A stretch of DNA of 64,000 nucleotides from Lojkania enalia (taxonomy: Eukaryota; Ascomycota; Dothideomycetes; Pleosporales), in contig ML986597.1 of NCBI GenBank assembly GCA_010094045.1, forward strand, positions 337,154 through 401,153. The letters run 5' to 3'. Position 1 is the first letter of the stretch; each line of letters starts with the position of its first letter. The notes under the pieces are model-generated. The model was not told the origin of the DNA and ran no database searches. It saw nothing but the letters and a program-made list of their open reading frames with translations. Below are positions 13,208 to 58,234 of this stretch, in pieces. A program made the translations under genes and the position numbers.

Positions 13208-14098
13208 ATATATTATATAGGAACTTATTATCCGGATAAAAGATAGTATTAATATTTTAGCCTAGTTTAGTATAGTAGGTATAGTATTTATACTAAATAC
13301 TAAGATTAATAATTCTATACTATATTAATTTAGGGTAAAAATTTTACTATATTAGATAATATACTATAGTATTTAAATTAACACGGAAATTATAGGATAT
13401 TCTTCTAGATGTTTAATAGTATAAGTAGGGTATTAACTAATATCTTCTAGTACTTCTCTATCTTTAGCTCCCCTAATAGGTAATATACTTTAGATTGTTT
13501 AGAGGAGCTAGTATAAAGTACTTAAATCTCCCTTTTTAGTAGATAATATATCTAGTTTCTACTAAACCCCCTTTATACTATCTTTTTATCTTTCTATACT
13601 ATTTATATTTATCTTTTAGGTCCTATCTACTCTATAGGATATTTCTACTAAAAGAGTATTTATACCTTCTAATTAAGTAGTTCCTATAAGTATTAAGTTC
13701 TTTTATAAAATAGTACTAGTAGCGCTCTTTAATATATATATAGTATTTCTTTTCTAGTAGAAGATAGATATCTAACTATCTTAATATCTTATTATTTTTA
13801 GGCGTAAAAGAGTAAACTCGGCTTATTAACTAGTACTTATTATATCTAAAGTAGAGATTAGATTATCTATAGATAGTTTTTACTTATTAATATTAGTTAT
13901 ATTTATCTTATAGTAGTTATTCCTTCTACCTATTATTATCTAGTATAAAGGAGTAGATAAGGCTATATATATTATAGTAATTATATTTTAAAGTAGGATT
14001 AGTTTATTTATAAATATAACTATTTTTATAATAGTATTTATATTTATCTTATAGTAGTTAGTTTTAAAGGTATCTTTTTCTTTTTCTTATTAGCAGTA
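13208..14098 (-). pseudogene. Copia A zinc-cluster linker segment
   Basis: 891 bp colinear and equal in length to Copia B 42384-43274. It contains the RIPed version of the Zn2Cys6 array (about 13392-14048); many TGC/TGT cysteine codons have become TAC/TAT. It ends at TA (14097-14098), where the pogo-like element is inserted and where Copia B has TG. Confidence 0.85.
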
Positions 14099-29620: not shown

Positions 29621-29630
29621 NNNNNNNNNN
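29621..29630. other. Assembly gap (10 N)
   Basis: Ten undetermined bases. The sequence after the gap restarts at the base equivalent to 27781, so contig ends seem to overlap rather than to be separated. Confidence 0.99.
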
Positions 29631-31470
29631 TATAGAGCGTCGCGTTGCTAAATATCTAGCTCTACCTCCTTATTACATATTAGTTAAGTTAATTATATAA
29701 GAAGAGGAGGTAATAGATTATAAGTAGTAGGATACTTAGAAGGCTATATAATCTAATTCTTATCCGTATCTAGCTAGAGTTAAAAGTAATATAACTATTT
29801 AATACTAATAATATAATCCTAAATATCTAAGTCTATAATAATAAATAGGTAGTTTTAAATAGTTCTTCTATTAATTTGCAGGTATAAGTAGATATACTAA
29901 TTAACTAGGGTTTAGATTCGGTTCTAAAAACCTTTAATAGTAATTTTAAAGGGTAAATACTATATTAATATATATAGAGCTTAGAAGAGCGATTTAACTA
30001 CTATAGAATTAAGGAATAAAAAGCCTTAGGTGCTTATATTAATAAGGGCGTTTAGTTGTACACCAACACCTTTTAAATATAGAATAGTAGAGATTTAGAA
30101 GTATTTTCCTCTAAATAAATACGATAAATTAATATTTAATAAGTTATATCTACTTAAGTCTAAGATAGAGAGTTTTTTTAGACGTCTCTATTTTCTACCT
30201 AAAAACTATCTAGGTAGTACTCGTTTACGTTTAAAAACTCTTCTTCTTTAATCTCCTCTTATTTAACTTTTATTTCTTATATTTTAAAGACTATATATTT
30301 ATTCGTAAAGTATTCTAGTTTACTATAGTTATAGTAATTATCTAGAGTTATATACCTTTAAGTACAGAAGTCTTATTAGGTTATTAGGGAGCGATTATAG
30401 TAGAACGAGGTATTAATACTAGGGTGGATTAAGGTAGTATTAGATTATAGGTTACTTTAGATAAACTTTTAAAAGCCTTCTAATACCGCTTTAAATTTAT
30501 TTTAGCTATAATCTATAGGCTAATAGTTCATTCTAAAAGGTTAAGAACGCTTTTTCTTTCTATATCGTAGGCTGTTAAATAGACGACTATAGTATTAAAG
30601 AAGCCTTTCTATATAAGCTTAAAGCTAAAGTTTAGTATCTTTAAGCTAGAGAGAATCTTATCCTATAAGTAGAAGAACTACTTAGATTAGGATACGGATC
30701 CCCTAATAGCTGTACTAATAAAGTAAGTTTTAAAAGTTGGGAACGCTTCTCCCTTATTTATCCTTAAGACCTAAAACGCCTGTTATACCTCTATCTTTTT
30801 ATTACCTATAATAAAATATAATTATAGAAGTAAAATTATTTCTTTAGTATTTTTAAACTAATACTAGTCTAATTTAGCTAGGTATTTTAGCTCTAGATAC
30901 CTTTTTATAGTACTAGAAGTATATCCCTATACTAATGCTATATATATACATTTTATCTAATAGTAATCTATATTAATCTTAAGTTAGTCTAGAATTAAAG
31001 CTTACTATTATTTAAATATAGGTTTATTACTATCTATAAAACTTTCGATCTTAGGTATATATTTAGTAAAGTAGGTTTAAGAAGGTTTAAGGGTAGTTAA
31101 GAGGTTTCTTACTAGAAGAGTTATAAAAGTTTCTTAGTATATTATTAGTACTAATTCAGTAGTTTATAAAGGTTAATTAAGACTAACAGTTTTCTATTAT
31201 ATTAAGCGTGTAATCTCCTCTTATAAAATTGTAATTTATTCCTTAAGAGTTAGTTTACTTTAATTTCCCTCTAAATTAGATAGGTTCTTTACTACCAGCC
31301 CTATAAAAAGGGGTCCGCCTATTATAGGGCCCCTTATAGGAGGTAACAGTTGTTTTATATATATAGATAGAAGTTTACTCTTATTATAACTTACGCGTAT
31401 ATTAATTCTAGTATAGGAATTAGAAGGTAAATTATAGTTAGATATCGGCGGTTACCTCTAATTCTAATAG
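29631..31470. repeat. Second copy of the 1,840-bp direct repeat
   Basis: It begins directly after the Ns and runs to the position equivalent to 29620, after which Gypsy C continues into its 5' part. Confidence 0.95.
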
Positions 31471-38010: not shown

Positions 38011-38439
38011 ATACTACCGTATGCAGGACAAGCTATATAGCTAGTTATAGCCTCGCGTCTGCAGGGCATTTCCGGCGTCGTACGCCTCTTAATCGGCAGC
38101 GCACTAGCCGAGGCGCGTTTATAGACAGCTCATCATTCTACGCCTACGAGGCAGAAGAGGAGACCCTTAGCTGCCTCCGCTCATCTGCTTCCCCTTTATC
38201 TCTACTTGCTTCATCTTGTACCTTTGGTTGTAGCCGCCCTGTACTCTTTGCAAATTCAATCGTCGCTCTAACTGCTTCTATATCCGGCTTCTAGTGCTAA
38301 ATCGGTCCGTCTATACTCTGCCCGCTTCCCTCTTATCTGCTCGAGTACCCTCCCAGCGCGTATAATAGCTCGCTAAACCGCTGTCCGTGCTGCTGTCGTA
38401 GCTTAGCTCTTTACTGTCTCCACCTTCTACACGAGAAGA

Positions 38440-38530
38440 GAAAGTGTGCTATTGACTCTTTGTATCCACACTCGCATGCCGCGGTATCTACAGCCTTGAT
38501 CTTGTAGAGATACTCGTTAAGAAACGTCTT
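38440..38530 (-). pseudogene. LINE B C-terminal CCHC segment
   Basis: The minus-strand translation reads CECGYKESIAHFLFSCRRW, the Cys-Cys-His-Cys motif often found after RNase H at the end of Tad1/Jockey-type pol proteins. It lies about 180 bp beyond the RNase H. Confidence 0.75.
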
Positions 38531-38713
38531 ACCCGTCCGTAGCTGCGTGATGATAGCCGCTTCGTTACTGTTTAGCTATCGGTATATCTCTACTAACTTG
38601 CCTAGATAGAATGCCGCATCAATCTTCCGCGTAAACTTTCCCTTCTCTTCCCACTTTGGTGGAGGCGGTCCTATTATGACGTTGGCTCTTTCCAGTGCCA
38701 ACCGCATCAGATA

Positions 38714-39115
38714 CTATGGTACTCCGTCTCGCTGCAGTGGCTGCTCGCTTTCTTCTCTCGTTGCTTCCTTCGCCAGTCTGTCTGCCTGCTCATTTCCCTC
38801 GATCCCTGCATGTCCTGGGATCCAATATAGCGTAGCGTTGGTCATCCAAAGTTTCTTAATAATCTCTGTCACAGTGACTTGACACGCACTAGCTCGCCAA
38901 CTACGTACTGATAGGAGCGCTGATTGTGAGTCAGAGAAGATCCTGATGCTTGACGCTGGCATAGGCCGACCGTCTCTATCGAGGGCTACGCATAACGGGC
39001 CCCACGGCCAGTTAGCAGCTTCACTGATTGCTAGTAGTTCGGTCAGGTGTGCGTCCGCCTGGTCTGAGCTTGCTACTGTCTTCGAGACGCAAATTTGCGA
39101 TGGTCTGGCGTACAC
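38714..39115 (-). pseudogene. LINE B RNase H domain
   Basis: An open stretch of 133 codons. Visible RNase H blocks are LTELLAISEAANW (catalytic E region), RIFSDSQSALLS (catalytic D) and YWIPGHAGIEGNEQADRLAKEA (the His-loop and last Asp). RNase H removes RNA from the RNA-DNA hybrid during LINE replication. The domain appears intact but is part of a broken pol gene split by Copia B. Confidence 0.9.
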
Positions 39116-39569
39116 TCCAATACCTGCCCTACCGTTCCGTACTGATGCGTCTACATATATATCTACCTATCCTGGCTGATAGTCTCCTGCAATAGCTCGT
39201 GCCCGCTCTTCGTCCTTACATATTACTACCTCGGGTCGCTCTACCTACGGCGGGCATGCATATGGCTTAACTTCGAGTACTGTGTCTATCCGGACGTCTG
39301 CACACATCTCCGCTACCCTTATAAGCGGGGATCGATGCTTCGTATATAGTCGTTGTCGCTTAAGCATCCAGTGGGGATGTAACTGACCCAGCTTATAGAT
39401 TGAGACCCAGAATGCAATTGTTTGCTTCCTTAGTCTCTGTTCTATAGGGAGCAGGCCTACCTCTACCTCTGCCACGGACAGGGCTACTATACGGAATCCT
39501 CTAATCACTGCTTACGCCGTGATCCTCTACGACTGTAAGAGGAGCTACTTTATATCGTGCGTTGCGATT

Positions 39570-40066
39570 GGGTACCATACTGGCGACGCATAGTCCGCTA
39601 CTAGTAGTACCGCACTCTACGCCAGCTGCTTAACTACTTTAGGTTGCAGTCCCTTCATCCTGCGTAGCGCTAGCGCTACTTTCGTCGCTTTACCTGCTTT
39701 GTCTGCTAGGTGGACCTTAAACCTCAGCTCCTTGTCTAGTGTAACGCCTAGTAGCTTAACTTTATCTTTCGGTACGATCTCCTTTCCTTTGAACTGCAGC
39801 GGTATCGTACTATCCCTACCTACCGCTTTATATCGCGTAAGGTGAATAAAACTCGTCTTAGTTGCCTTAAACTAGGCTCTACTAGTGCGCTCCCACTTCT
39901 CCAACGTTAGAATTACTTCGTCCTGGATAATCCGTGTATTCTCCTCGGCTGACCGTCCTATAACCCATGCTGAGTAGTCGTTAATAAACGCTATTGAGCT
40001 ACCGTGTCGTGGAGCGCTCTGCACTAGGTCTGCGTTAAAGAAGAGGAAAAGAATAGGAGCAAGCAC
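39570..40066 (-). pseudogene. LINE B reverse transcriptase, C-terminal half
   Basis: Homologous to 639-1136. Near 40066 the frame reads LAPILFLFFNADLV, then FINDYS where LINE A still has FVDDYS, so a catalytic D is now N. The N-terminal half is at 46797-47980. Confidence 0.85.
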
Positions 40067-40075
40067 GGATCCTTG

Positions 40076-40245
40076 AGTTGAAAATGTGATTCTTCAAGTG
40101 TATCGATTAGCCTATGGGCTTCTAGGGACTTATATACATGTACATTGTTCCAGCCTCCATAGGCAGACAAGCCACAGACTCTATCGTGGCGTATATGCCT
40201 ACCAGGCATATACGCCACCTCGTCACGTGCTGTTCAGAAACAACT
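40076..40245 (-). repeat. Copia B 3' LTR (left)
   Basis: 170 bp beginning AGTTGAAAATG and ending CAGAAACAACT on the plus strand. The terminal 5-bp inverted repeat is AGTTG...CAACT. The element-strand sequence before it, GTTAGTGGGAG, is the likely polypurine tract. Confidence 0.94.
40186..40218. repeat. Perfect 15-bp hairpin in the Copia B LTR
   Basis: Arms 40186-40200 and 40204-40218 are exact inverted copies (GTGGCGTATATGCCT) around the 3-base loop ACC. The other LTR has the same structure at 46737-46769 with one C-to-T change. Function unknown; it could be a protein site or an RNA hairpin. Confidence 0.9.
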
Positions 40246-40251
40246 CTCCCA

Positions 40252-40790
40252 CTAACAGCAAGTGGCGAGTTCAGTACAGGAGCTCTTGTCCATCCCAAGT
40301 CCGTTTACCAGATTCTCATGAGCGTCCCTCGGGAGCGGTTTTGTGAGGAGATCTGCCAAATTATCTTTAGTACTAACCCTTCGAGTATTAATTCTCCCAC
40401 TAAGCGTCATTTCTCGCAGGAAATGATATTTCAATTCAATGTGCTTTGTGCGGTCATGTAACTCAGGATTACGAGTCAGCTTGAGTGCAGCATTATTGTC
40501 AATCAGAAGCGGGGTTGATGTGGCTTCCAGGACTTTAATGCGAAGGTCGTTGATCATGTTTTAGATCCAGATAATCTCTTAAGTAGCCTTATATCCAGCT
40601 ATATATTCGGCTTCGCAGGTTGACATTGCCACGGTCCTTTGCCTTCGAGATGACCACGACACAGGACTTCCTGCTAGTTTAACCACGTAGCCTGTTGTAG
40701 ATCTTCGGGTGTCTAGACACCCAGCCCAGTCTGCATCAACATAAGCATGCAGTTCTCCATCTAGACAGTCCTTCTTAAAATGAAGCCCAA
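40252..40790 (-). pseudogene. Copia B RNase H
   Basis: Two open segments in the same frame, separated by a stop near 40560. They show HAYVDADWAGCLDTRRSTTGY, CEAEYIAGYKAT, then LLIDNNAALKLTRNPELHDRTKHIE and DNLADLLTKPL, the complete copia RNase H signature with its catalytic D, E and D. The frame ends at the stop 40252-40254, seven bases before the LTR. Confidence 0.9.
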
Positions 40791-40849
40791 GATCGGGCGT
40801 GTATTTTAGATAAGCATAGATATCATCAACTGCTTTTATATGTTCTTCC

Positions 40850-41765
40850 GTCGGATTCGCGCAAAACCTAGAAACAACTCCCACTACTTCAGCAATATCT
40901 GGACGGGTAACTACCATTGCATAATTGAGAGCTCCAACCTTGGATTGATATTGTCGCTGAAATTCAAGAGGCCGGGGGTAACCATTATTCTTAGCCAATT
41001 TTAGGTTTGTTCTCATAGGCGTCTTTCGTGGATGGATGCCCTTCAGTCTATATCGTTCGAGAATCTGTTGGATATATGATTCTTGATGTAGATGGACGTC
41101 GCCGTTCGGTTTTTGATGCACATGCATCCCCAAGTAATAGGCGCAAAGACCAAGATCCATCATATTAAAACGTAAAGCTAATTGTTCCTTCATAGCTATA
41201 ATTCGACCCTCATTTATGCCGAAGATGGTGATATCGTCGACATAGACTTCTATAATAAGGTTCTTATCATCTTAAATAAACACGGATGGATCGAAGTTTG
41301 AGACTCTCCAACCATTTTCTTCGAGGAAGGCCCTGAGTTTGAAGTACCACTATCTCGGTGCCTGCTTTAGTCCATACAAGGATTTGCACAATTTAAGGAC
41401 ACGATTACTTACTTCAGAATAACCTTCTAGTGGTTCGACGAAGATTTCGTGTTCAAGGTCGCCATTAAGAAATACTGTCTTGATATCCATTTGGTGGCAC
41501 TTCCAGCCATATCGAGCTTGAAGTGCAAAGAGTATCCGGTAAGATACTAACTTAACAACAGAGGCGTATGTTTCATCAAAATCAAGGCCATATATCTATA
41601 AGAAGCCTCGCACGACAAATCTTACCTTGTACCGAGCAACTTTTCCGTCTGAGCCAAGTTTCCACTTAAAGACCCACCGACCGGTGAGTACTTTGCGGTT
41701 TGTTGGTCGATCCACGACTTCCCATGTCTTATTTTCCAGCAAGCTGTTGTACTCATCTTGCATAG
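40850..41765 (-). pseudogene. Copia B reverse transcriptase
   Basis: The translation begins MQDEYNSLLENKTWEVVDRP and continues through RWVFKWKLG, QMDIKTVFLNGDL (family KTAFLNG), KSLYGLKQAPR and VYVDDITIFG near 41223-41250, all copia hallmarks in the right order. Both YVDD aspartates are intact. A few stops interrupt it. The second Fot1 insertion site of Copia A (41251) lies just in front of this box. Confidence 0.9.
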
Positions 41766-42389
41766 CTTACTCCCACTGATTCCATTCAGTGGAGGCCAAG
41801 GCAGTCTTCCTGTTGTGTGGTTCAGGACCAAGTGAGTTGGCTGAGACTGACATCATACAGATGGTTGGCCTGCTGGCTTCCTCCATGGTGATCTTCCCCT
41901 TGTCGGCCGTTTCCCGAAGGGAGACGGGCGACGAAAACGTGGAGGTTGTTAAGCTATTACTCCTGTTAATTTCCCATTCACTTTCCATAGCTTGGAGTTC
42001 TTGTTGAGGACGAGCGGGAGCTTGTTGAAGGTTATAGACTTGTCTATCGAGACGCAAAGGTGATAGAGAATGATTTCCTTTCTTGAGGTAGGGTGTAATA
42101 GCGAGATTAGCTTGTGGCTCCAATAGCGCAGGGTCGATAAGCATTTCGCTATCCTTGATTTCGAGATCTTCATCAAGGGAGTCATCCAGCGTTTCCCAAT
42201 CTTCGTCGTCTTCCCCCATCGTCGTGCCTGCCTCTATCATTGGTAGTAGTGATCTCAGATATTAAGGTGGAGGGCCCCGCGGAATACCACGAAAGAAAAA
42301 ACGTTTATATCCTCCATCATCATCATTAAACTAGAGGCACGTCGTGCCTTCCTTCTTTCTAGAGAATTCCTGCCTTTCAATGCATATAT

Positions 42390-42470
42390 TGCATGGGAAC
42401 TTATTGTCCGGATAAAAGATGGCGTCAATATTTTGGCCTAGTTCGGCGCAGCGGGCACAGCATTCATGCT
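42390..42470 (-). pseudogene. Second Cys-rich segment after the zinc array
   Basis: Still in the gag-pol frame, the minus strand reads HECCARCAELGQ, then DNKFPCNICIERQEF. Two CX2C pairs about 19 residues apart suggest a further zinc site of different type. It lies between the array and the acidic segment GEDDEDWETLDDSLDED at about 42170-42240. Confidence 0.65.
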
Positions 42471-42567
42471 AAATACCAAGATTAAGAATTCTGTGCCACA
42501 TTGATTTGGGGTGAAGATTTTGCTGTATTAGGTGATACACTGCAGTATTCGGATTGACACGGAAACT

Positions 42568-43224
42568 GCAGGATGTTCTTCCGGACGTTCGACAGTATAG
42601 GCAGGGTATTAACTGACATCTTCTAGCACTTCCCTATCTTCGGCTCCCCTGACAGGCAACACACTCCGGATCGTTTAGAGGGGCCAGCATGGAGCACCTG
42701 AATCTCCCTTTTTGGCAGGCAATGCATCTAGTTTCCGCTGAGCCCCCCTTACACCATCTCTTCGTCTTTCTGCACTGCTTGCATTTGTCCTTTAGGTCCT
42801 GTCTACCCCGTGGGATATTTCCACTGAAAGAGCATTTGTACCTTCTAATCGAGCAGTTCCTGCAAGTATTAGGTTCCTCTATAAGGTAGCACCGGCAGCG
42901 CTCCTTGGTACATGCATAGCATTTCTTCTCCGGTGGAAGATAGGTATCTGACCATCTTAGTACCTTGTTGTCCTCGGGCGCGAAAGAGCAAACTCGGCTT
43001 ACCGACTGGCACTTATCACATCTGGAGTGGGGATTGGATCGTCTGCAGACGGCTCTTACTTGTCGACATTGGTCGCATTTGTCTTATAGTAGTTGTCCCT
43101 TCCGCCTGTCGTCATCTGGTGCGAAGGAGCAGATGAGGCCGTATATGTTACAGTGATCGCATCTCGAGGTAGGATCAGTTCGTTTACAAATATAACCATT
43201 CTTACGACAGCGTTCGCACTTGTC
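42568..43224 (-). pseudogene. Copia B tandem Zn2Cys6 zinc-cluster array in pol linker
   Basis: In the gag-pol frame, four modules each have exactly CX2CX6CX8CX2CX6C: M1 43218-43129, M2 43077-42988, M3 42921-42832, M4 42783-42694. All 24 cysteines are present. Residues after the second Cys are basic (CKQCRKTKRWC, CERCRKNGYIC), and M1-M3 have a proline in the middle loop (KRTDPTSR, RRSNPHSR, YLIEEPNT), as in fungal Gal4-type zinc clusters. Spacers are 17, 22 and 16 residues, and after each module stands CS plus F or M (CSFAP, CSFAP, CSFSG, CSMLAP). A fifth unit (42663-42568) is imperfect. Stops are at 43084-43086 and 42634-42636. Zn2Cys6 modules normally bind DNA in transcription factors. A role in targeting or regulation here is inference. 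Confidence 0.9.
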
Positions 43225-43899
43225 TTATAGCGGTTAGCCTTAGGGGCATCTTTTCCTTTTCCTTATTGGCGGTGATGCGCTTGGTTTTACATGTCGTACA
43301 TGGGTGCTACTATTTGATAGGCGTGTGCCTTGCCTGGTAAGTATGTTTACTTGCGGCGTAATTCTATTTCGGGAGTCGTAAACGGCGTAAGCATCGTCCC
43401 ATGTATCATAGTCAATGCCAGCTTCTAAAAACGCTTTATGTATGGAGCCTATTTCGTGTGCTTCTTCTTGGTTATTATCTGGTTCGATGTCTGAGGGGGT
43501 ACTTAAAGACTGGCTTTGGGTCTCAGATAGATTGTCTGAATATGGATGTACCTAGTTATTACTGTCCTCCTCAGGGTTACGCACAGTATTATAATCAATC
43601 TATACAAAGTAGGGAGAGGTTTTGGAAGTACTTCGGGTTGAGTAGCGAGGGACTTGCGGACCGGTTTGTGTAGAGTTGTATAAACTTCCTGGGCTACTTG
43701 CGTACGGTTAGGGGGGTGTTTCTAGGGTCGACTCGTTATCTGAAGCATCGTCATCCAAGGTTATTTCAGTAATTGGAATTCGATTAGAGAGGGTTTCGCC
43801 GTCATAGTCGTCGGTCTAGCCTTACCCATCGTCGACACGTGGTGCAGTAACACGTACAACGCGTTTCTTATCTGGGTGCCAGATTCTCAGTAAGGCTTC

Positions 43900-44760
43900 A
43901 GTTTCGAAACCAACGAAATACCCAATCCATCCTCGTGGTTGGAGAAGGGTTTTTTGTCTATGCTCTGGTGGATAGGTAATATAGACCCGACTGCCAAAGA
44001 TCCGCTCGATGTTAAGGTTTGGTTTGAGTTTATAGAACGCTTCCCACGGCGTTATTTTCCCTTCAAGGGCCCGTAATGGTAATCTATTTTTAATCCAGAT
44101 TGCATGTGAGAAAGCTTCAACCTACAGTGTTTCTGATAGGGAAACGTTCCTCATTGCTTCTTCTATACGTGTGCCAAGTATCTTGGAAATTGTTAATGAG
44201 ACGCTATTTGTTGCTTCTTGCAGCATTACTGATACTCGTTCTCTGTCTGTACGAAACCCTCTTTCCGCAACGCCGTTCATATGGTGTATATAGGGCACTG
44301 AGTTCTCCAGAGAGATTGCATGTCGCTGGAAACAGTCCCGAAGTTCTCCGTAGAGTGGAAACTCATTGTCAAGTCGGTATGCGCGAATTGTTATATTATT
44401 CCGTTTTTCAATAGTTCGGTGAAGGTGTCGAAAGACTTCTAGAATCTTGTCCTTAGTTGCATATCTTGCTGACCAGGTAAAACGAGTTGCATCATCCGTT
44501 ATAGCCAGAATATATACCGTATTGTCCCATACACTAACTAGATACAGTCCCCACGCATCTGCGTGCATCATTTCCCCTAGATTCATAGCTCGTCGAGTTG
44601 CCGGATCTCTAGGGATTCTATTTACTGCTTTGGTGGTAGCGCAGATAGGACAGATAGTACCCAATTTTGCCTGTAATTGTTTGTCAGTCAGATCAATACC
44701 ATTGCTTACTTTGAGGAGATCCCTCAAGCTCTAAACGCTGAGGTGTCCCATTCGTCTATG
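43900..44760 (-). pseudogene. Copia B integrase
   Basis: A 201-codon open segment (44727-44122) starts with the end of the zinc domain (ICPICATTKAV). The catalytic core follows with D in MHADAWG, D in YRLDNEF and E in NGVAERG, all three acidic residues present. The downstream part (about 43900-44050) reads PRGWIGYFVGFE, a conserved copia block after the core. Integrase inserts the cDNA with 5-bp target duplications. The sequence then leads into the long linker without a frame change. Confidence 0.9.
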
Positions 44761-45105
44761 CTATTTCCAGACTGGGTCATCGTAATCAAGTAGAGACACA
44801 ACAAAAGGTAGCTGAACTCCTAGTAGAAGCTGTTGGTCCGGAGTTCGCGTAGAGTCTTCTCCTACTACTTCCGCATCTCTTGTGCTGTTTGCTTATAGTA
44901 AGATTGGTTCCCCTTAACTCGGTTGGAGGTCATTTAGGTGTTCTGGTGGGTCGATTTATAGGTGAAAGAGTCCATCAATCAGGCTAGCATGGCCAATTTC
45001 AAAACCTTCAGCGGTTCTGATAGATATTCCTTTAATCCCCCAGACTCCTGTAAGCTTTGCTTTTTCAGCAATCCAAGAGAGTGACAGAATGTTGCATCTA
45101 GCGTC

Positions 45106-45444
45106 CTAAGCATAGGCCACATTGTGCAGCTCTAGCTCAACTGGCTCATTACCATCAGTAGTTAGCTGGAGGAGTACAGTTCCAGCTCCTTCGATATACA
45201 AGCCACCATTATTTGCAGTTCCAACAGTATATATTATTTTCTGGAATTCAGAAAACCATACTTTATCATTTACAATACAGACATTTGCACCTGAGTCAAC
45301 AATCCACTTAGAGCTTCGTTCTACTGCGTCATCCTTGAGCAGCATCATCGTTTGTGGATTAAGACCATCTATAAGTCGTGGCCTTCCTGGATACAGAGAG
45401 TCACCTGGATTGTTATATTCCGGGACATTGGTTTCGTCCCTCAT
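45106..45444 (-). pseudogene. Copia B protease region
   Basis: A 112-codon open segment with KWIVDSGANVCIVNDK, the copia aspartic protease site DSGA, and the glycine-rich flap GTANNGGLYIEGAGTV. It follows gag in the same frame after RIP stops between 45444 and 45568. The protease releases the mature proteins from the gag-pol precursor. Confidence 0.88.
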
Positions 45445-45567
45445 AGAGGAATGTTTGTCCAGGTTTATTATCTTATCGCTTGATCCGGCATTTGCACATA
45501 TTACTTCCCATTTATTACGGTGGAGTATAGCAGTGGCTACAATTCTGCCGGGGTGCTTGGGACCATG

Positions 45568-46590
45568 TTATAACTGAGGTTTGGGGTAATCTTTAGATCC
45601 CGTATTTTGGGCAGTATTAACCTGTCTTTTGAACTGTTTCGAGGCTTCCTCGTGTTTATTAAATTTGTTCTCCCTGAGTTCAGGGTGTGCGATCCAGCAT
45701 TCTGATTCATTGTGGGTGCCCCACTTGTTGCATCCTTCACAGAGTTGTCGGTCTTTTCTTTCTCTTCCCTTGTTCTTTGCTACACTCTCTTTGTTGTCCT
45801 TTTCTAACGCCAGTTGTGCCTCTACTCCTAAAAGATGTCCGTGGAGAGTTACCAGGTCGCGTGGAAGGGCAGCTGTTCCAGCCAAGAGGTTCCAGGTATC
45901 TAGGAATCTGTTGAAACGGTTCGGCAGGGAGCGTACGACCTTTAATATGAGTTGTTCGTCACTGAAAGTGCCCTCAAGGTCGATGATATCTTGTTGCAGG
46001 GTTTTGAGAGTATTGATAAGATCAGATACTGATCCCTTAAACTTGAGTTGTTCGATTTTTCCTAGAGTCATGTCCAGGGCGCGAGCGTCATTCATCTTAC
46101 AGAGTCCCTTGAGCTTCTCCATTGCCTGCTGTGGGTTCTCTTCATCCTTGATGCATCCTCGAAGGGCTGTGTTGATGGTGGTGGACAGGAGGCCTCGTGC
46201 ATATCGAAGACGTTTCTGCTGTTTTTCGTATTCGTCGAGATCGAGCTTGTAGAACTGGATGATAAGACTCAGCTGATCGCTTGTTTGAGCCTCTATGCTG
46301 CTACCGGTTGGGTCAGCGTCTTTGCCGTTCGATTTCTTAGCTGGTTTAGCTTAAGTCGGAACGCCAGAAAAGGTTGGTCGCGTTGGCTTGTTTTGGATAG
46401 TCTCTTCTCCGGTAAGGATGTTCCAGACATTATTTGCCTCGGCGATGAACTTCAGGTCGCGCTTCCATGCAAGGTAATTTTCCTGGCCTTGAAGTACTTC
46501 GACCCGTGCTTTAACGGATTCGTTGGTGAGTTTAATGCTAGCTATGGCTGCAAAATTTTGACTTCTTGAAGACCGTATTTGGACTATCAC
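45568..46590 (-). pseudogene. Copia B gag region
   Basis: 341 codons, in frame with pol, with one stop near 46350 (probably CAA to TAA). The N-terminus reads VEVLQGQENYLAWKRDLKFI, the start typical of copia gag. The middle (MTLGKIEQLKFKGSVSDLI, ILKVVRSLPNRF) is the capsid helix region. A knuckle, CEGCNKWGTHNESEC, lies near 45720. Gag forms the particle and binds the RNA. The start codon at 46590 is the first ATG after the LTR and primer site in this frame. Confidence 0.87.
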
Positions 46591-46612
46591 TGAAAGGGTG
46601 CGGTATGCACAA

Positions 46613-46626
46613 CCGGGCTCATAACC
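46613..46626 (-). promoter_or_regulatory. Copia B primer-binding site (initiator tRNA anticodon arm)
   Basis: Directly inside the 5' LTR the element strand reads GGTTATGAGCCCGG. Its complement, with GGGCTCATAACC, is the anticodon stem-loop of initiator methionine tRNA (CAT anticodon). Drosophila copia is primed by an initiator tRNA cut in this region, not by the tRNA 3' end. RIPed versions stand at the same place in Copia A and Copia D (54015-54028). Confidence 0.8.
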
Positions 46627-46796
46627 AGTTGAAAATATGATTCTTCAAGTGTATCGATTAGCCTATGGGCTTCTAGGGACTTATATATATGTACATTGTT
46701 CCAGCCTCCATAGGCAGACAAGCCAAAGACTCTATCGTGGCGTATATGCCTGGTAGGCATATACGCTACCTCGTTACGTGCTGTTCAGAAACAACT
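46627..46796 (-). repeat. Copia B 5' LTR (right)
   Basis: 170 bp with the same ends as 40076-40245. A few transitions separate the two LTRs, so the insertion is old or was RIPed. Confidence 0.94.
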
Positions 46797-49700
46797 CCTT
46801 GCGGAAGACCTGCCTGCGGAAGACTCTGTACTTCTATTATCCTACCGTTGACAAGAATACATGCTTGTCGTTCTATACAGAAGTCCTGTACCTACTATAC
46901 AATCTTCTCCGAGATCTGTCACTGCCGCAATCTTCTAATCTCTAGCTCGGTAGCCACATTATTATATGCTCCCTTAACGTCGAACGAAACCAGTAATAGC
47001 GTCTTCTTTCCGCGCTAAGCCTTAAATATATCCTCGTAGAGGTACGATAGCGCATACGTTGTTAACCTCTGCTTCTACGCGCCAAAGTGTGTCTTAGGTA
47101 AGAGACTATACTCCTCTACTAGGTATGCTATCCTCTCGGCTACCAGCGACTCGAGCGCCTTGCCTAGTATTAGCAGTAGTAAGATTGGCTGGTAGTTGTT
47201 AGCTATTGTATAGTCTTTTCTATTTAGCTTCTGCAGCGGTACAATCTTTGCAACCTTCTACTCCTTTAGTACCTTTCCTAGTTCGAGAGATCTCGCGAAT
47301 AGCTGCGTGATCTCATTACCTAGGACCGGCCACAGCTCTCTCCATACTCTTGCTAGTAGGCCGTCTCTTCCTAGCGCCTTGTCTGGGTTTGCTCTAAAGA
47401 CGGCTGCTTTTACCTTATACTTAGCTATCGGCTCGCAGTAGAGTTGATTGTATGTTGTTAGCATCTCCTCATACTCGCATGGCGGTGGGCTAGGGAAGAA
47501 TGCATGGAGCAGCTCTTGTCCTATCTCTTCATCCTCTGTGGCAGTTCCTCCCTCTTAGCTAGTCTTTTGGATTGGTGGTATTCTAGCAAATGAGCTACTT
47601 GCCTGGGAGTCCAGATATTTAGCTGCCTTCTATACATTATCATTGTTATTGAGGAATGCTTTCCAGTGTTGCTTGCGGTGCCGTCGGATTGTCCTATAGA
47701 AGAGTCTTTTCGCTCTCGTCGCTGTATTGCGCAGTTCTGCATCCTCTCTTCCTTACCGCCGCATCATACATACTCTGTTTCTCCAGTACGTATATGACTT
47801 TCTCAGCGCCGTGAGGTCCTCACTCCACCATCGCTTTATGTACCGCGACGGTCTCGCCCTCAGACAGTGCATCTCTACCGCCTTAGTCGCCCACTATGTA
47901 AGCTGGCTAGCCATCTCCTCGATGTCTTCTGCTAGAAAGCCTGCTTTCTTCTCTTGCTCAACCGTCTGTCGAGTCTTATCCCACAGCGCGTTCTTAAACA
48001 GCAGCTTCTCCTAGCCTTCTTTCTCGTCTATATCCATATGGAAGCGCGTCTATATAGCCCTGTAGTCTGACCTATATTCATGTTCCCAGATCGAGCACTT
48101 AACTAGGTCCCCCGCTAACCTAGCTGTTATAAGTATTAGGTCGATAGTCAACAAGCGTCCCGCATCGCTAATAAATGTAGTTAGTCCTACCGGCAGAAGG
48201 CTCTATAATGATAGCTCCGCTATAAAGTTAATAATTAGCGCACTATCCTCTTAGCTTACTGTACTATCAATATAACTTCCTCCTTATAGTAGGTTATATC
48301 GGTTAAAGTCGCCAGCAACTACTACCTCCGTATACGGGTCGCATAGTCGCTTCTACTATACCAGCCTGTCAATTGCCTGCAGCCTGCTGCTAAGTTCCTC
48401 TAAGTTCTCCTCTCTAGTTCTCGTTGACGAAGACATGTCTAGAATATACACCAATACTATTATTAGTTTCCTTCCGCTTATATATACTCGCACAGCTGTA
48501 ATATCTGCCGAGTCTATATATAACTGTGTAGCCTTAATATCTTTCGATGCCCAGATGCACGTTTAGACTAGATACTATTCTTCTCGTCTACTATACAGTA
48601 TATATATCGTCCAGCGTGGATTCGTACTATATAGTACCACTTTTCCCTCTTCTAGAAAGTATCCAGGTTCCTGCTCTAGAATAAAGTAAAAGTCGGCTAA
48701 TATTATATCGTTATAAAGCGTGTATTACGCTTCCCTAGTTCTTTTTATATTTGCCTAAAGGATCCGGAGTTCTCTATTTATAGCATTAACGTGCAAGGAT
48801 CCTGCCTATCTCTTTCTTAAATTCTGAACATTCTCGATATAATACTTAATACGGGCCTTAGCAGTTAACGCATCGCAGGTTAACTATCTTATAATATAAG
48901 TACCCTTCTTGCCCGTATATATCGCATGCCTCTTATCGTATATAGTCTCTTACTCTATATCTAAACCTCCTATACTTATAGTAGGCTACTAGTATATATC
49001 GCTCCTTAAATTGTAATACTATAATACCCCCTCTTCTAAACGTTACGCTGTCTAACTTTAGTAACTTCTCAGCCTCCTCCTTTATTGCTACCTTAACTAC
49101 TGCTAACGTATACTATCCTTTAAGCCTTAGTTACCCTAACTATCGCATCATATATACCTCCACTCCGTTTTCTATGCTGAATCGTTCTATTGCTGACCTA
49201 CTTATTTTACTACTCTCTATATCTATAGCTAAAGCTACCTTAATCTAGTCTACTTTTATCGGATACTACTTAGGTCCTACTAGTCTTACACCCGGTAGGG
49301 TTAGTTTAAGCCAGTCTACTGTTACCTGCCGAACCGCCGCCTCCTTATTCTTATTAACCGAGAACTTAATCACGCTTATATTGTTATTTACTCGCTATAC
49401 ACAGAAGTCTTTTACCGTCGTTCCTACGAGACTTTTAACCTTATTTATACTTTACTAGATCGCCTGCTTAGCCGCCTCTATAGTCGCTACCTTCTCTATT
49501 ATATCGTCTCTTATCTAGCTAACATTAATTACTAGCTGTCGTTCATTCTCCTTATCGACCCTTCCTTTATTCATCGACCTTAAAGGCCTTATATCTAATC
49601 CTACCTACTATCTACTAGCTGCGACTGTAACCTATATATATCTTAATAGCGCTTTAGTTAAATAGGTGTTAAGCTGCATTTAAAGAGAGTATATAGTTTT

Positions 49701-50266
49701 ATATAGCTCTACGATCTAGTCTTTAAAATTCTATTATTCTACTTAGAATATTACGTAGTCGCTTTAAATATCTTTAATAATCTTATTCTAGTTCGCAATA
49801 ATATTGTTTTATTATACTATCGTCTGTTTCAGGCTCGTAATAAGTTCAGCTAGCTCTCCTATCCTAGTACTACCGCTATTAAGAGCTTGTTGAGAAGAGG
49901 TTAATATACGCTTAATATAAGGTAGCGGTAGTTTATATTACTCTAGATATTATTATATACTATTAAGTTCCTCGTTCTATAGTAATAGTAGTACTATAGC
50001 TCTGCGCTTAGCTTGTATAGATTAGCTTACTATTACTCTTATTATCGGGGGCTGCTGTAGTATATTAGATGTTTTTATTGTCCGCCTCTTAGTACGTTTT
50101 ACTAGCATAGGGGGTAGTATTAATAGGTTGTAATTAGAATCTAATGTTACTATCAGGGCTTCAGTATAAGATTCGGTGGTCCGGGCGGACCGCTTTATAA
50201 TAGAAACTAGCTAAGTAAGTATCTATAGTTCGAGTAAAAAAATGTCTAAGATAAATATCCTTCTTA
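46797..50266 (-). mobile_element. LINE B, 5' part
   Basis: Colinear with 34311-37778. It contains the reverse transcriptase N-terminus (46797-47980), with the open segment 47464-47258 reading FRANPDKALGRDGL and FARSLELGKVL. Next is the endonuclease (about 47980-48700; EVVVAGDFNRYNLL, TIDLIL). ORF1 follows (about 48,800-50,240). RIP damage rises sharply towards 50 kb, where ORF1 is full of stops. Confidence 0.87.
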
Positions 50267-50393
50267 TTAATAATTTAGAAGTTCTTCTTACTACCTTACG
50301 TCTCGCTACTCTATAAGCCCTATGTTAGTGCGGCTCGGCTATCCTCCTTACTAGCGGTAGTAAAGGGAAAAAAAAAACTTCTAAATTATTAAT
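50266..50393. repeat. Centre of a large inverted repeat
   Basis: The 18-bp sequence at 50266-50283 (ATTAATAATTTAGAAGTT) is an exact reverse complement of 50376-50393, and both continue outward into LINE B and LINE D. The 92-bp spacer 50284-50375 is not repeated and contains a run of ten A. The arms reach at least 42150 on the left and 64000 on the right (Gypsy D inserted in the right arm). Confidence 0.9.
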
Positions 50394-53300
50394 AAGGAGG
50401 ATATTTATCTTAAATATTCTTTTACTTAAACTGCGGACACTCGCTTAGCTAGTTTCTACTATAAAGCGGTCCGTCTAAACTACTAAACCTTATACTAAAA
50501 CCCTAATAGCGACGTTAAATTCTAACTACAACCTATTAACACCACCCCCTATACTAGTAAAACGTACTAGGAGGCGGATAATAAAGGCATCTAATATACT
50601 ACAGCAGCCCCTAATAATAAGGGTAATAGCGAGCCGATCTATATAGACTAAACGCAGAGCTATAGTACTACTATTACCGTAGAATAAGGAACCTAATAGT
50701 ATATAGTAATATCTAAAGCAATATAAACTACCGCTACCTTATACTTCTTAACAAGCTTTTAATAGCGGTAGTACTAGGATAGAAAAGCTAGCTAAACTTA
50801 TTGCGAGCCTGAAATAGACGATAGTATAATAAAATAATATTATTACGAACTAGAATAAGATTATTAAAGATATTTAAAGCGACCGTGTAATATTCTAAGT
50901 AGAATAATAGAATTTTAAAGACTAGATTATAAAGCTATATAAAATTATATACTCTCTTTAAACGCAGCTTAATACCCGTTTAACTAAAACGCTATTAAAA
51001 TATATATAGGCTGCAATCGCAGCTAGTAAATAGTAGATAGGATTAGATATAAGGCCTTTAAGGTCGACGAATAGAGGAAGAGTCGACAAGGAGAATAAAT
51101 AACAGCTAGTAATTAATATTAGCTAGATAAGAGATGATATAACGGAGAAGGTAGCGACTATAGAGGCGGCTAAGTAGGTAATCTAGTAAAGTATAAATAG
51201 CGTTGAAAGTCTCGAAGGAATAATAGTAAAAGACTTCCGTATGTAGCGAGCGAATAATAATATAAGCGTAATTAAGTTCTTAGTTAATAAGAATAAAGAG
51301 GCAGCGGTCTGGTAGGTAACAGTAGACTAGCTTAAACTAACCCTACTAGGTGTAAGGCTAGTAGAACTTAAATAGTATCCAGTAAAAGTAGACTAGATTG
51401 AGGTAGCTTTAGCTATAGATGTGGAGAGTAGTAAAGTAAGTAGGTTAGCAATAGAACGATTCGGTATAGAAAACGGAGTAGAGGTATATACGATGCGATA
51501 GCTAGGGTAACTAAAGCCTAGAAGACGGCATGCGTTAGTAGTAGTTAAGGTAGTAATAAAGGAGGAGGCTAAGAAGCTATTAAAGTCAGACAGCATAACG
51601 TTTAGAGGAGAGGGTATTATAGTATTATAATTTAAAGGGCGACGTATACTAGTAGTCTACTATAAGTATAGGAGGTTTAGATATAGAGTAAGGAACTATA
51701 TATAATAAGAGGCATGCGATATATACGGGTAAGAAGAGCACTTATATTATAAGATAGTCAACCTGTAATACGTTAACTGCTAAAGCCCGTATTAAGTATT
51801 ATACTAAGAATATCTAGAATTTAGGAAAGAGATAGGTAGAATCCTTACACGTTAACACTATAAATAGAGAACTCCGGATCCTTTAGGCAAATATAAAAAG
51901 AACTAGAGAAGCGCAGCACGCGCTTTATAACGATATAATACTAGCCGACTTTTACTTTATTCTAGAGTAGAAACCTGGATGTTTTCTAGAAGAGGGAAAA
52001 GTAGTACTATATAGCACGAATCTACGCTAGACGATATATATACCGTATAGTAGATAAGAAGGATAGTATTTAGTTCGAACGTATATCTAGGCATTGAAAG
52101 ATATTAAGGCTATACAGTTATATATAAACTTAGTAGATATTACAGCTATATAAGTATATATAAGTAGAAGGAAACTAATAATAGTATTAGTATATATTCT
52201 AGACATATCTTTATTAATAAGAACTAAAGAGGAGAACTTAAAGGAACTTAGCAGCAGGCTACAGGTAATCAACAGGCTAATATAGTAGAAGTAACTATAC
52301 AACCCATATATAGAGGTAGTAGTTACTAGCGACTTTAACCAACATAACCTATTATAGAGAGGAAGTTATATTGATAGTATAGTAAGTTAAGAGGATAGTA
52401 CGCCAATTATTAACTTTATAGTAGAGCTATTATTATAGAGCCTTCTACCGGTAGGACTAACTACATTTATTAGCGATGTAGGACGCTTGTTAACTATTAA
52501 CCTAATACTTATAACAGCTAGGTTAATAGGGGATCTAGTTAAGTGCTCGATCTAGAAATATAAATATAGATTAAACTATAGGGCTATATAGACGCGCTTC
52601 TATATAGATATAGACGAGAAAGAAGGCTAGGAGAAGCTGCTGTTTAAGAACACGCCGTAGAACAAGATTCGATAGATAGTTAAACAAGAGAAGAAAGTAG
52701 GCTTTCTAGTAGAAGATATTAAGGAGATGGCTAGCCGGCTTATATAGTAGGCGACTAAGGCGGTAGAGATATACTGTCTGAGGGCGAGACCGTCGCGGTA
52801 TATAAAGCGATGGTAGAGTAAAGACCTTACGGCGCTGAGAAAGTCGTATATATACTAGAGAAATAGAGTATATACAATATAGCGGTAAGGAAGAGAGGAT
52901 GTAGAACTGCGTAATACAGCGACGAGAGCGAAAAGACTCTTCTATAGAACAATCCGACGGTACTACAAGTAATACTAGGAAGTATTCCTTAATAATAACG
53001 ATAATATATAGAAGGCAGCTAAATATCTGGACTCTTAGGCAAGTAGCTTATTTACTAGAATACTACCAATCTAAAAGACTAGCTAAGAGGGAGGAATTGC
53101 TATAGAGGATAAAGAGATAGGACAAGAGCTGCTCTATATATTCTTCCCTAGCCCGCTACTGTATAAGTATAAGGAGACGCCGATAATATATAATTAACTC
53201 TACTATAAGCCGATAGCTAAGTATAAGGTAAAAGTAGCCGTCTTTAGAGCAAACCCAGATAAGGCGCTAGAAAGAGACAGCCTACTAGTAAGAGTATAGA

Positions 53301-53844
53301 AAGAGCTGTAGCTAATTCTAGATAATAAGATTACGCAGCTATTCGCGAGATCTCTCGAACTAGGAAAGATACTAAAGGAGTAGAAGGTTATAAAGATTAT
53401 ACTACTGCAGAAGCTAAATAGAAAAGACTATATAATAGCTAATAACTACTAGCTAATCTTACTACTACTAACGCTAGGCAAGGCGCTCGAGTTGCTGGTA
53501 GCTAAGAGGATAGTATACCTAGTAGAGGAGTATAGTCTCTTACCTAAGATATACTTTAGCGCGCGGAAGTAGAGGGTAATAATATATATACTATTATACC
53601 TCTACGAGGATATATTTAAGGCTTAGTACGGAAAGAAGACGCTATTATTAGTTTCGTTCAACGTTAAGGGAGCATATAATAATATAGCTACCGAGCTAGA
53701 GATTAGAAGATTATAGCAGTGATAGATCCCGGAGAAGATTATATAGTAGGTATAGGACTTCTATATAGAATAACAAGCATATATTCTTGTTAACAGTAAG
53801 ATAATAGAAGTATAGAGTCTCCCGCAGGCAGGTCTTCTGTAAGA
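50393..53844 (+). mobile_element. LINE D, 5' part (inverted copy, heavily RIPed)
   Basis: The plus-strand copy of 46797-50266 and 34311-37778: ORF1 (about 50420-51850), endonuclease (about 51950-52650) and reverse transcriptase N-terminus (to 53844). No usable reading frame remains. It ends at Copia D in the same PQGS codons; the target duplication is RIPed to TAAGA (53840-53844). It faces LINE B head to head. Confidence 0.87.
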
Positions 53845-54014
53845 AGTTGTTTCTAAATAGCACGTGATAAGGTAGCGTATATATCTAGTAGGTATATACG
53901 CCACGATAAAGTCTGTAGCTTATCTACCTATAGAGGCTAGAATAATATATATATATATAAGTCCCTAAAAGCTTATAAGCTAATTAATATACTTAAAGAA
54001 TTATATTTTTAACT
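53845..54014 (+). repeat. Copia D 5' LTR
   Basis: 170 bp, begins AGTTGTTTCT and ends TTTTTAACT. The RIPed primer-binding site AGTTATAAACCTAG follows at 54015-54028. Confidence 0.92.
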
Positions 54015-57000
54015 AGTTATAAACCTAGTTATATATATTATACCCTTTTAGTAATAGTTTAAATATAATCTTTAAGAAGTTAAACTTTTACAGCTATAGC
54101 TAGTATTAAACTTACTAACAAATCCGTTAAAGTATAGGTTAAAGTACTTTAAAGCTAGAAAAATTATCTTATATAGAAGTACAACCTAAAATTTATTGCT
54201 GAAGTAAATAATGTCTAGAATATTCTTACTAGAGAAGAGACTATCTAAAATAAGCTAATATAACTAATCTTTTCTAGTATTTTAACTTAAGCTAAACTAG
54301 CTAAGAAATTAAATAGTAAAGATACTAACCTAACTAGTAGTAGTATAGAGGTTTAAATAAGCGATTAGCTAAGTTTTATTATCTAGTTTTATAAGCTCGA
54401 TCTCGACGAATATAAAAAATAGTAGAAACATCTTCGATATATATAAAGTTTCCTATCTACTACTATTAATACAGCCCTTTAAGAATGTATTAAAGATAAA
54501 GAGAACCTATAATAGGTAATAGAGAAGCTTAAAGGACTCTATAAGATAAATAATACTTACGCTCTAGATATAACTTTAGGAAAAATTAAATAACTTAAGT
54601 TTAAGAGATTAGTATCTAATCTTATTAATACTTTTAAAACCCTATAATAAAATATTATTAACCTTAAAAGTACTTTTAATAATAAATAACTTATATTAAA
54701 GGTTATATACTCTCTACTAAACCGTTTTAATAGATTCTTAGATACCTAGAACTTCTTAGCTAGAATAGCTACTCTTCTATACAACCTAGTAACTTTCTAT
54801 AAATATCTTTTAAGAGTAGAGGTATAACTAGTATTAGAAAAGAATAATAAAGAGAATATAGTAAAGAATAAGGGAAGAGAAAGAAAAGACTAATAACTCT
54901 ATAAAGGATATAATAAATAGAGTACCTATAATAAATTAGAATACTAGATTATACACCTTAAATTTAAGGAGAATAAATTTAATAAATATAAGAAAACTTT
55001 AAAATAGTTTAAAAGATAGATTAATACTACCTAAAATATAAGATTTAAATATTATCTTAAACCTTAGTTATAATATAGTTTTAAGTACCTTAGTAGAATT
55101 ATAGTTACTACTATATTCTACTATAATAAATAGGAAGTAATATATATAAATGCTGGATTAAATAATAAGATAATAACCCTAGATAAATATTCTTTTATAA
55201 AGAATGAAACTAATATCCTAGAATATAATAATTTAGGTAACTTTCTATATTTAAGAAGACTATAACTTATAGATAGTTTTAATCTATAAATAATAATACT
55301 ATTTAAAGATAATATAGTAGAATAAAGCTCTAAGTAGATTATTAACTTAGGTATAAATATTTATATTATAAATAATAAAGTATAGTTTTCTAAATTCTAG
55401 AAAATAATATATACTATTAAACTTATAAATAATAGTAGTCTATATATTAAAAGAGCTAGAATTATACTCTTCTAGCTAACTATTAATAGTAATAAACTAG
55501 TTAAGCTAGAGCTATATAATATAGCTTATACTTAAAACGTTAAATATAATATTCTATTACTTTTTTAAATTGTTAAAAAAGTAAAGTTTATAGAAGTTTA
55601 GAGGATTAAAGAAATATTTATTAAAACTGCTAAAGGTTTTAAAATTAGCTATACTAGCTTAATTAATAGACTCTTTTACCTATAAATTAACTTACTAGAA
55701 TACTTAAATAACCTCTAACCGAGTTAAAAGGAACTAATCTTACTATAAGTAAATAGTATAAAAGATATAAAAGTAATAGAAGAAGATTCTATATAAACTC
55801 TAGATTAATAGCTTCTACTAGAAGTTTAACTATCTTTTATTATATTTTTACTTAATTACGATAATCTAGTTTAGAAATAGTATAGATAAATAGAATACCT
55901 TAGTATTTAGAGCTTAAAAGATCTTCTTAAAGTAAATAATAGTATTAATCTAATTAATAAATAATTACAGGTAAAATTAAATACTATCTATCTTATCTAT
56001 ACTACTATTAAAGTAGTAAATAGAATCTCTAAAAATCTAGTAATTTAATAAGCTATAAATCTAGGGGAAATAATATATATAGATATATAGGGACTATATT
56101 TAGTTAATATATAAAATAATATAGTATATATTTTAGCTATAATAGATAATATAACTTATTTTACCTAGTTGGTAAAATATATAACTAAAGATAAGATTCT
56201 AGAAGTTTTTTAACACCTTTACTAAACTATTAAAAAATAGAATAATATAATAATTTATATATACTAACTTAATAATAAGTTTCTATTTTATAGAGAACTT
56301 TAGAACTAATTCTAGTAATATATAATCTCTTTAGAGAACTTAGTACCCTATATATACTATATAAATAGTATTGTGGAAAGAGGTTTTTATATAGATAGAG
56401 AATAAATATTAGTAATACTATAAGAAGTAATAAATAATATTTTATTAATAATTTCCAAAATACTTAGTATATATATAAAAGAAGTAATAAGGAATATTTT
56501 TCTATTAGAAATACTATAGGTTAAAGTTTTCTTATATATAATCTAAATTAAAAATAGATTACTATTATAGGCCTTTAAAGGGAAAATAATACTATAAGAA
56601 GCGTTTTATAAATTTAAACTAAACTTTAATATTAAGTAGATTTTTAGTAGTTAAGTCTATATTACCTATTTATTAGAGTATAGATAAAAAACCCTTCTCT
56701 AACTATAAGGATAGATTAGGTATTTTATTGGTTTTAAAACTAAAGTTTTACTAAAAATCTAATATCTAGATAAGAAACGTATTATATATATTACTATATT
56801 ATATATTAATAATAGATAAGGTTAAACTAATAATTATAATAGTAAAATCCTCTCTAATCGAATTCTAATTATTAAAATAACTTTAGATAATAATATTTTA
56901 GATAATAAGTTAACTCTAGAAATACCCCTCTAATTATATATAAGTAGCCTAGGAAGTTTATATAATTCTATATAAACTAGTTTATAAGTCCCTTACTACT

Positions 57001-58032
57001 TAATTTAAAATATTTTTAAAACCTCTTTCTACTTTATATAAATTAATTATAATACTATATATTATTTTAAAGAGGATAGTAATAATTAAATATATTTATA
57101 TTTAGATAATTTATTTAAGACCTAAAGCTAGTTTTTAAATACTCTCTTAGATATTAAACTAGATAATAATTAAAAAGAAGTATATAAAATAGGCTTTATA
57201 TATAAAGCGTTTTTAAAAACTAATATTAACTATAATATATAGGATAATACTTATATCGTTTACAACTCCTAAAATAGAATTATAATATAAGTAAATATAC
57301 TTACTAGATAAGGTATATATCTATTAAATAGTAGTATCTATATATAATATATAAAATTAAGCGTATTACTACTAATAAGAAAAAGGAAAAGATGCTTTTA
57401 AGGCTAACTACTATAAGATAAGTATAAACGCTATTATAAGAATAGTTATATTTATAAATAAACTAATCCTACTTTAAAATATAATTACTATAATATATAT
57501 AGCTTTATCTACTCCTTTATACTAGATAATAACAGGTAGAAGAGATAACTACTATAAGATAAATACGACTAATATTAATAAGTAAGAGCTGTTTATAGAT
57601 AATCTAATCTCTATTCTAGATATAATAAGTACTAGTTAGTAAGCTAAGTTTACTCTTTTACGCCTGAGGATAATAAGATACTAAAATAGTTAGATACTTA
57701 TCTTCTACCGGAGAAGAAATACTATATATATATTAAAGAGTACTACTAGTATTATCTTATAAAAGAACTTAATACTTATAGGAACTGCTCGATTAGAAGG
57801 TATAAATACTCTTTTAGTAGAAATATTCTATAGGGTAGATAGGACCTAAAGAATAAATGTAAGTAGTATAGAAAGATAAAAAAATAGTATAAAGGGGGTT
57901 TAGTAGAAACTAGATATATTACCTATTAAAAAGAGAGATTTAAGTATTTTATACTAGCCCCTCTAAACAATCCGGAGTATATTATCTATTAGAGGAGCTG
58001 AAGATAGAGAAGTGCTAGAAGATATTAGTTAA

Positions 58033-58234
58033 TGTGAAGGTCCCGGCCTGTGGCTCGGTCCCGTTCCTGCGATGCTATGATGGTAGTTGCCCTTATGCGA
58101 CCCTGCACCTGCCTGGACTAAAGTAAGCGAATAATATGTATCTCACCACCGTGTACCTTCTCTTCTCTTTCTCTAGCTTTAACAATAATGGATTCTCATT
58201 GTGTCTGATCCCATTGTGTCCTCAGACCTTCTCA
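58033..58234 (+). repeat. Gypsy D 5' LTR
   Basis: 202 bp, starts TGTGAAGG, ends CTTCTCA; essentially unmutated. The 3' LTR shows many C-to-T and G-to-A changes against it. Confidence 0.94.

Follow-up and report, generated by a model that had tools for sequence, protein, structure and literature searches.

Zn2Cys6 transcription factors normally carry one zinc cluster; the present case is a tandem array of such clusters inside a retrotransposon. The array studied here lies in a copia element of the ascomycete Lojkania enalia, in a stretch of 64,000 nucleotides (assembly GCA_010094045.1, contig ML986597.1, positions 337,154 to 401,153), which is called the window below. It occupies the linker between the integrase and the reverse transcriptase (RT) of the polyprotein. 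The original prediction, made from the letters of the window, had seen the array and had missed both its wider distribution and the target of the element. Judged from protein comparisons, a whole clade of copia elements encodes such an array. Nearly all copies of the long terminal repeat (LTR) family to which the window copy belongs are inserted base-exactly at one position in the RT of a long interspersed nuclear element (LINE), which suggests that the array picks the landing site.

Four regular modules on the minus strand (43218–42694) fit CX2CX6CX8CX2CX6C with 24 of 24 cysteines, as predicted and as found again on translating the stretch and rechecking its coordinates. The loop proline reported for three of the four modules is likewise present. 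Basic residues had been said to follow the second cysteine; they do so directly in three modules (CRK, CRQ and CRK), and in the fourth the basic residue stands one position later (CTK). The former count of four holds for the regular modules and leaves out two irregular cysteine modules (5 and 6) that come after them, counterparts of which were aligned in 47 of 68 clade proteins, a subset selected by regular expression. A Pfam Zn_clus (PF00172) search, proposed earlier as a check, gave 22.6 bits (cut-off 21) in three stretches for piece 42637–43083, which holds modules 2–4. Fold comparison of an AlphaFold2 model, in which module 3 was the portion aligned, listed 14 Protein Data Bank entries, all of them Zn2Cys6 DNA-binding domains, and a sequence search of the same databank with the 149-residue array piece gave no matches. 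By their spacing and the profile score, the modules are classed as Gal4-type Zn2Cys6 clusters, and as such they would have a two-helix binuclear fold and bind two zinc ions and DNA.

The element itself is a Ty1/copia LTR retrotransposon, as indicated by its domain order, two 170-bp LTRs and a 5-bp target duplication. Window pieces match rve (below the cut-off) and then RVT_2, in Ty1/copia order, and in the relatives P0003 and P0004 the Pfam order is Retrotran_gag_2 (just below the cut-off), gag_pre-integrs, rve, SH3_retrovirus and RVT_2. The gag-pol phase, which starts at 46698 on the minus strand, had been called uninterrupted; it is unbroken as a phase but contains 32 in-frame stops in 2149 codons, and no open reading frame of 300 or more residues was found within 40000–47000. 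Just inside the 5' LTR, the sequence GGTTATGAGCCC... is read at 46597–46626, a candidate for the kind of internal initiator-tRNA primer site that copia elements have. The colinear arrays described near 13.4 and 57.5 kb, altered by repeat-induced point mutation (RIP), are real (Table 1). Each of the three window copies interrupts a copy of one and the same LINE and is oriented alike relative to it, so that they do not count as three independent contexts. The genome yielded ten array-bearing loci, nine of which carry stops within the array and differ mainly by RIP-like changes; a degraded fragment on C216 has no visible linker.

To what extent is the array a property of the element family rather than of these copies? 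The linker letters alone, used as a query, retrieved nine relatives of up to 2095 residues, eight of which have all four regular modules, while the ninth lacks one because a Cys has changed to Arg. The RT of one of these relatives, P0003, was then used as a query that contains nothing of the linker, and the best 120 of 4742 proteins were considered; with the best 120 of 3010 from a further RT query, taken at the opposite edge of the clade, the total came to 175 proteins. Among the first 120, 68 are at least 44% identical in RT to P0003, and in 59 of these 68 the linker has one or more regular Zn2Cys6 modules; altogether the 68 linkers contain 200 such modules, whereas shuffles of the same composition led to an expectation of 0.01. 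The remaining 52, mostly named plants and algae, have none. Of all 175 polyproteins, 101 form one RT clade, each with two to eight modules in the integrase–RT linker when modules are counted by looser paired CxxC motifs, strict spacing being found in the above 59 of 68; in the other 74, 73 have no module and one has one. The identity lines (44% and 41.5%) were chosen after the data were seen. FastTree recovered the same 101 proteins as one clade (support 0.715), and a careful RT tree gave support 100/100, with 68 rows set against eight outgroup rows hand-picked from the 52. The named members (Aureobasidium, Zymoseptoria, Pseudogymnoascus, Penicillium and Fusarium) are fungi, and the label of the clade as fungal relates to these, which are a minority of its proteins. 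No relative was met in two scans of viral contigs, nor was an array seen at four loci of other copia elements in the same genome, of which C175 and C322 are alike.

The nine independently sampled relatives and the 101 fetched clade members bear out the view that the array is a family trait, and it is not confined to the duplicated copies of the window. At the protein level, moreover, the array cysteines are conserved in 198 of 200 cells among ten relatives of the window piece (leaving out an extra cysteine unique to the window copy), in comparison with 1004 of 1280 cells (78%) for the other residues, and in P0010 the figures are 19 of 20 and 37 of 128. None of the outcomes that were named beforehand as refuting the prediction, namely a missing Zn-cluster match, cysteines not conserved in un-RIPed relatives, or a host fragment restricted to the duplicates, came about. 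A captured fragment of a host gene, or a functionless chance reading, might have been imagined, as the module is of a host type with at least 125 Zn_clus matches in the host genome; we rejected this origin on the basis of the shuffles, the clade-wide presence and a cysteine conservation far above the background, and regard it as having practically no chance of being correct.

When the window LTR and a sister LTR were used as queries, 16 loci were found in the genome, 14 of which belong to the window family. Thirteen of the 14 lie at one base-exact position of the LINE, in the LPQGS codons of its RT. The three loci on the window's contig share one orientation with those on C53 and C16; those on C137, C195, C284 (two loci), C51, C32 and C78 have the opposite one; and the C88 locus has mixed flanks. 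Only one end is visible at C16, C32, C78 and one of the two C284 loci. The joined flanks of the window copy restore the LINE frame ...AGLPQ|GSVLAPILFLFF... (Pfam RVT_1, 6.5e-12), and the duplicated CAAGG takes in the codon for Gln plus two bases of that for Gly. The site is empty in 14 fetched LINE copies, seven of which align to the joined flanks without a gap, and two more empty copies are indicated from coordinates alone. Base-exact, site-specific insertion of the window family is well supported.

The same-site copies could also be read as one old LINE-plus-copia composite that was spread by recombination with no targeting. The target LINE copies on C195, C284, C221 and C32 are apparently arranged head to tail with a period of about 5.7 kb, judging from the spacing of flank matches. 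At C88:54505-61225 (L021), the upstream flank of the LINE stands on both sides, as recombination between two insertion orientations would produce. These arrays, the recombinant C88 flanks and the large duplications within the window all speak for a composite, and it is certain that some of the 13 loci arose from others via recombination within LINE arrays. As an account of the whole set, however, it is contradicted and quite improbable, because both orientations occur and homologous recombination cannot invert the copia element at its exact edges. Furthermore, most LINE copies differ from that of the window almost only by transitions (0–0.8 transversions per 100), whereas the C53 LINE is about 10 transversions per 100 away from it, and the C78 LINE is about 10 from it and 3.8 from the C53 LINE (the values for the right side of C51 and the left side of C16 are inflated, as LINE homology ends early there). 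Three LINE lineages have been struck at the same base, one of them in both orientations, and therefore at least four insertion events took place.

The pattern is also repeated by the sister family, in another kind of element. This family is represented by two solo LTRs, on C104 and C3, which are 96% identical to each other and about 81% identical to the window LTR. Both are located inside a pogo-like transposase (DDE_1, 8.3e-18 and 2.5e-8) at the same codons (YNMDKTGV|MLSML and YNMGETRI|MLSML); the duplication is AACAT, the two LTRs point in opposite directions, and the two pogo copies are 71% alike over 340 bp. In contrast to this, a control copia family of the same genome (C322:7873-13307, L046), which has 202-bp LTRs and no CxxC in the linker read, showed distinct left flanks at 20 of 20 fetched loci. 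These were chosen among the higher-ranking of the 40 LTR-length matches that had been scored from 261 candidates. Two of these loci (L048 and L055) have 56 bp of nearby sequence in common and differ in insertion site. The contrast between base-exact sites and a scattered control gives circumstantial support to the original prediction that the array guides integration; with one array-less family it is a correlation, from which we infer a causal link between array and target.

We consider it fairly probable that the array, linked to the integrase, reads DNA and so fixes the target, from which base-exact insertion in either orientation would follow. The array is situated between the SH3-like domain of the integrase and the RT, most likely as a C-terminal extension of the integrase, and presumably stays on the integrase after processing. 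Its fold would be that of Gal4-type Zn2Cys6 clusters in series, and it would read DNA; tethered to the intasome, it would hold the integrase over one particular sequence, and the complementary DNA (cDNA) would be inserted at a fixed base pair, in either orientation because the intasome is two-fold symmetric. For the window family, the sequence read would be the conserved LPQGS motif in the RT of LINEs. Several points weigh against this. The remaining LTR of the window family, on C30, has a TTCTG duplication at a place that is unique in the genome and is off-target; the insertion-site data come from one genome with few independent events and a single control family; the sister family is seen as solo LTRs; and the targets have no DNA word visibly in common, nor did inspection of them by eye reveal a code of CGG triplets.

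A different role for the array would be to bind the LTR or the cDNA ends of its own element, in transcription control or intasome assembly, with the target set by the integrase core or a host factor. Zn2Cys6 proteins are transcription regulators, and close relatives with similar arrays are also similar in their other domains, both of which agree with such binding; by itself it gives no account of a base-exact target in three LINE lineages, and the array evolves faster than the rest of the element (47% identity between two elements, versus 86% for the RT), a change that might fit a retargeting module. We hold LTR or cDNA binding to be unlikely, and target reading to be the better account.

The linker has, besides, a variable slot. 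The number and type of modules differ between array-bearing families, and C2H2, helix-turn-helix (HTH), homeodomain and Myb-like domains stand beside the array in some lineages (P0113, P0138, P0167 and P0027), the Myb-like match being to a low-confidence model from two aligned sequences. This bears on a third possibility, that the array binds or packages RNA during reverse transcription. It adjoins the RT, and cysteine-rich RNA-binding knuckles are found in many retroelements; nevertheless, the clusters are of a DNA-binding type according to Pfam and fold comparison, and the same slot is occupied by the HTH, homeodomain, C2H2 and Myb-like domains. The gag of the element already has a zinc knuckle of its own, on which ground a nucleocapsid role was rejected, and RNA binding or packaging seems a poor prospect. 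If target reading is correct, families that differ in module number and type should differ in target, too. More tentatively, with somewhat less than an even chance, the whole clade may possess an exchangeable DNA-reading head on its integrase, made of a constant C-side Zn2Cys6 pair and the variable slot (Zn2Cys6 strings, C2H2, HTH, homeodomain or Myb-like), each family having its own base-exact address, here the conserved catalytic motifs of rival transposable elements. Such a head would amount to a natural, modular, retargetable integrase. It would supply numerous naturally occurring module–target pairs from which to learn a recognition code, it would parallel in nature the zinc-finger integrase fusions that have been engineered, and the elements would break their competitors by landing in catalytic motifs.

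Table 1. Positions of the array, the copia element and the interrupted LINE in the window
Feature	Position	Strand	Basis or remark
Zn2Cys6 module 1 (CX2CX6CX8CX2CX6C)	43129..43218	-	Spacing; Pfam Zn_clus 19.6 bits for this module alone, just below cut-off 21
Zn2Cys6 module 2	42988..43077	-	Spacing; AlphaFold2 pLDDT 81-84
Zn2Cys6 module 3	42832..42921	-	Spacing; extra cysteine in window copy only; portion aligned to Zn2Cys6 structures
Zn2Cys6 module 4	42694..42783	-	Spacing
Irregular Cys module 5, one in-frame stop	42568..42663	-	Counterpart of clade C-side pair
Irregular Cys module 6	42337..42462	-	Counterpart of clade C-side pair
Copia element carrying the array	40076..46796	-	LTRs, target duplications, coding phase
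5' LTR, 170 bp, AGTTG...CAACT	46627..46796	-	LTR comparison
3' LTR, 170 bp	40076..40245	-	LTR comparison
Target duplication, 5 bp, plus strand CCTTG (LINE sense CAAGG)	46797..46801	.	Flank comparison
Target duplication, second copy	40071..40075	.	Flank comparison
gag zinc knuckle CX2CX5HX4C	45697..45741	-	Spacing
Integrase stretch	44122..44730	-	Pfam rve 1.3e-5, 25.9 bits, below cut-off 32.6
Reverse transcriptase 3' part and downstream stretch	40579..41271	-	Pfam RVT_2 3.7e-16
LINE part upstream of insertion	46802..50266	-	Joined flanks, RVT_1; 5' limit approximate
LINE part downstream of insertion	38229..40070	-	RNase H at 38717-39166, Pfam 3.8e-12; 3' limit approximate
Colinear array, modules 2-4, RIPed copy (C20:350614-351060)	13461..13907	-	Matched to array
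Colinear array, modules 2-4, to residue 145 of 149, RIPed copy (C20:394711-395145)	57558..57992	+	Matched to array

Two larger repeats were also observed in the window. In its right part, an inverted match at 42608–58033 (15.4 kb, 80% identity) joins two LINE-plus-copia composites into a large, imperfect palindrome. A direct repeat at 27781–31470 (1840 bp, 99.8% identity) flanks a run of ten N (29621–29630), and this pair may be an assembly artefact.

The clade may be one of the FunCo clades of fungal copia elements of Donnart et al. 2017 (PMC5445492), with FunCo1 as a candidate. In the accessible text of that paper the only mention of zinc is the gag finger of GalEa and no array is described, nor is one mentioned in the accessible text of PMC3248453. 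Titles and beginnings of abstracts, with few subscription papers among them, contained neither Zn2Cys6 modules in copia polyproteins nor base-exact targets of LTR elements. Nested LTR retrotransposons of plants similarly prefer regions of other elements, but according to the available part of the source (PMC6911290) similar nested copies were in every case 50 bp or more apart in position, as against the single base hit here.

Like the Gal4-type transcription factors, the array has the six-cysteine spacing and, putatively, the fold of their clusters; unlike them, it consists of two to eight tandem clusters inside a retrotransposon polyprotein. Chromodomains read chromatin, not sequence, and none was among the Pfam matches of P0001, P0003 and P0004 at E-values up to 1. 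The chromoviruses, as far as the available text of PMC5911963 goes, likewise have a host-type reading module C-terminal to the integrase that is thought to aim insertion. They are Ty3/gypsy elements, whereas the present one is a copia element with a target fixed to the base. The non-LTR elements R1, R2 and Utopia go into a single defined position of a repeated sequence; they employ an endonuclease of their own and target-primed reverse transcription, and the orientation is always the same. The window family shares the fixed site in a repeated sequence with them (for Utopia, see the accessible part of PMC4640811). It differs in being inserted as LTR cDNA with 5-bp duplications in either orientation. 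What is understood of site choice by LTR retrotransposons and retroviruses mainly concerns host tethers, by which a zone is set. In the present clade, a module of DNA-binding type beside the integrase varies by family in number and type, and it accompanies insertions that are fixed to the base. Further parallels are the copia-type Ty1 and Ty5, in which, according to the same partial source (PMC5911963), the targeting region is at the C-terminus of the integrase, matching the position of the array, and acts via Rpc40 of Pol III in Ty1 and via Sir4 in Ty5. These are protein–protein tethers that set a zone, and this situation is different from that of the window family, in which an array of DNA-binding type goes together with one fixed base.
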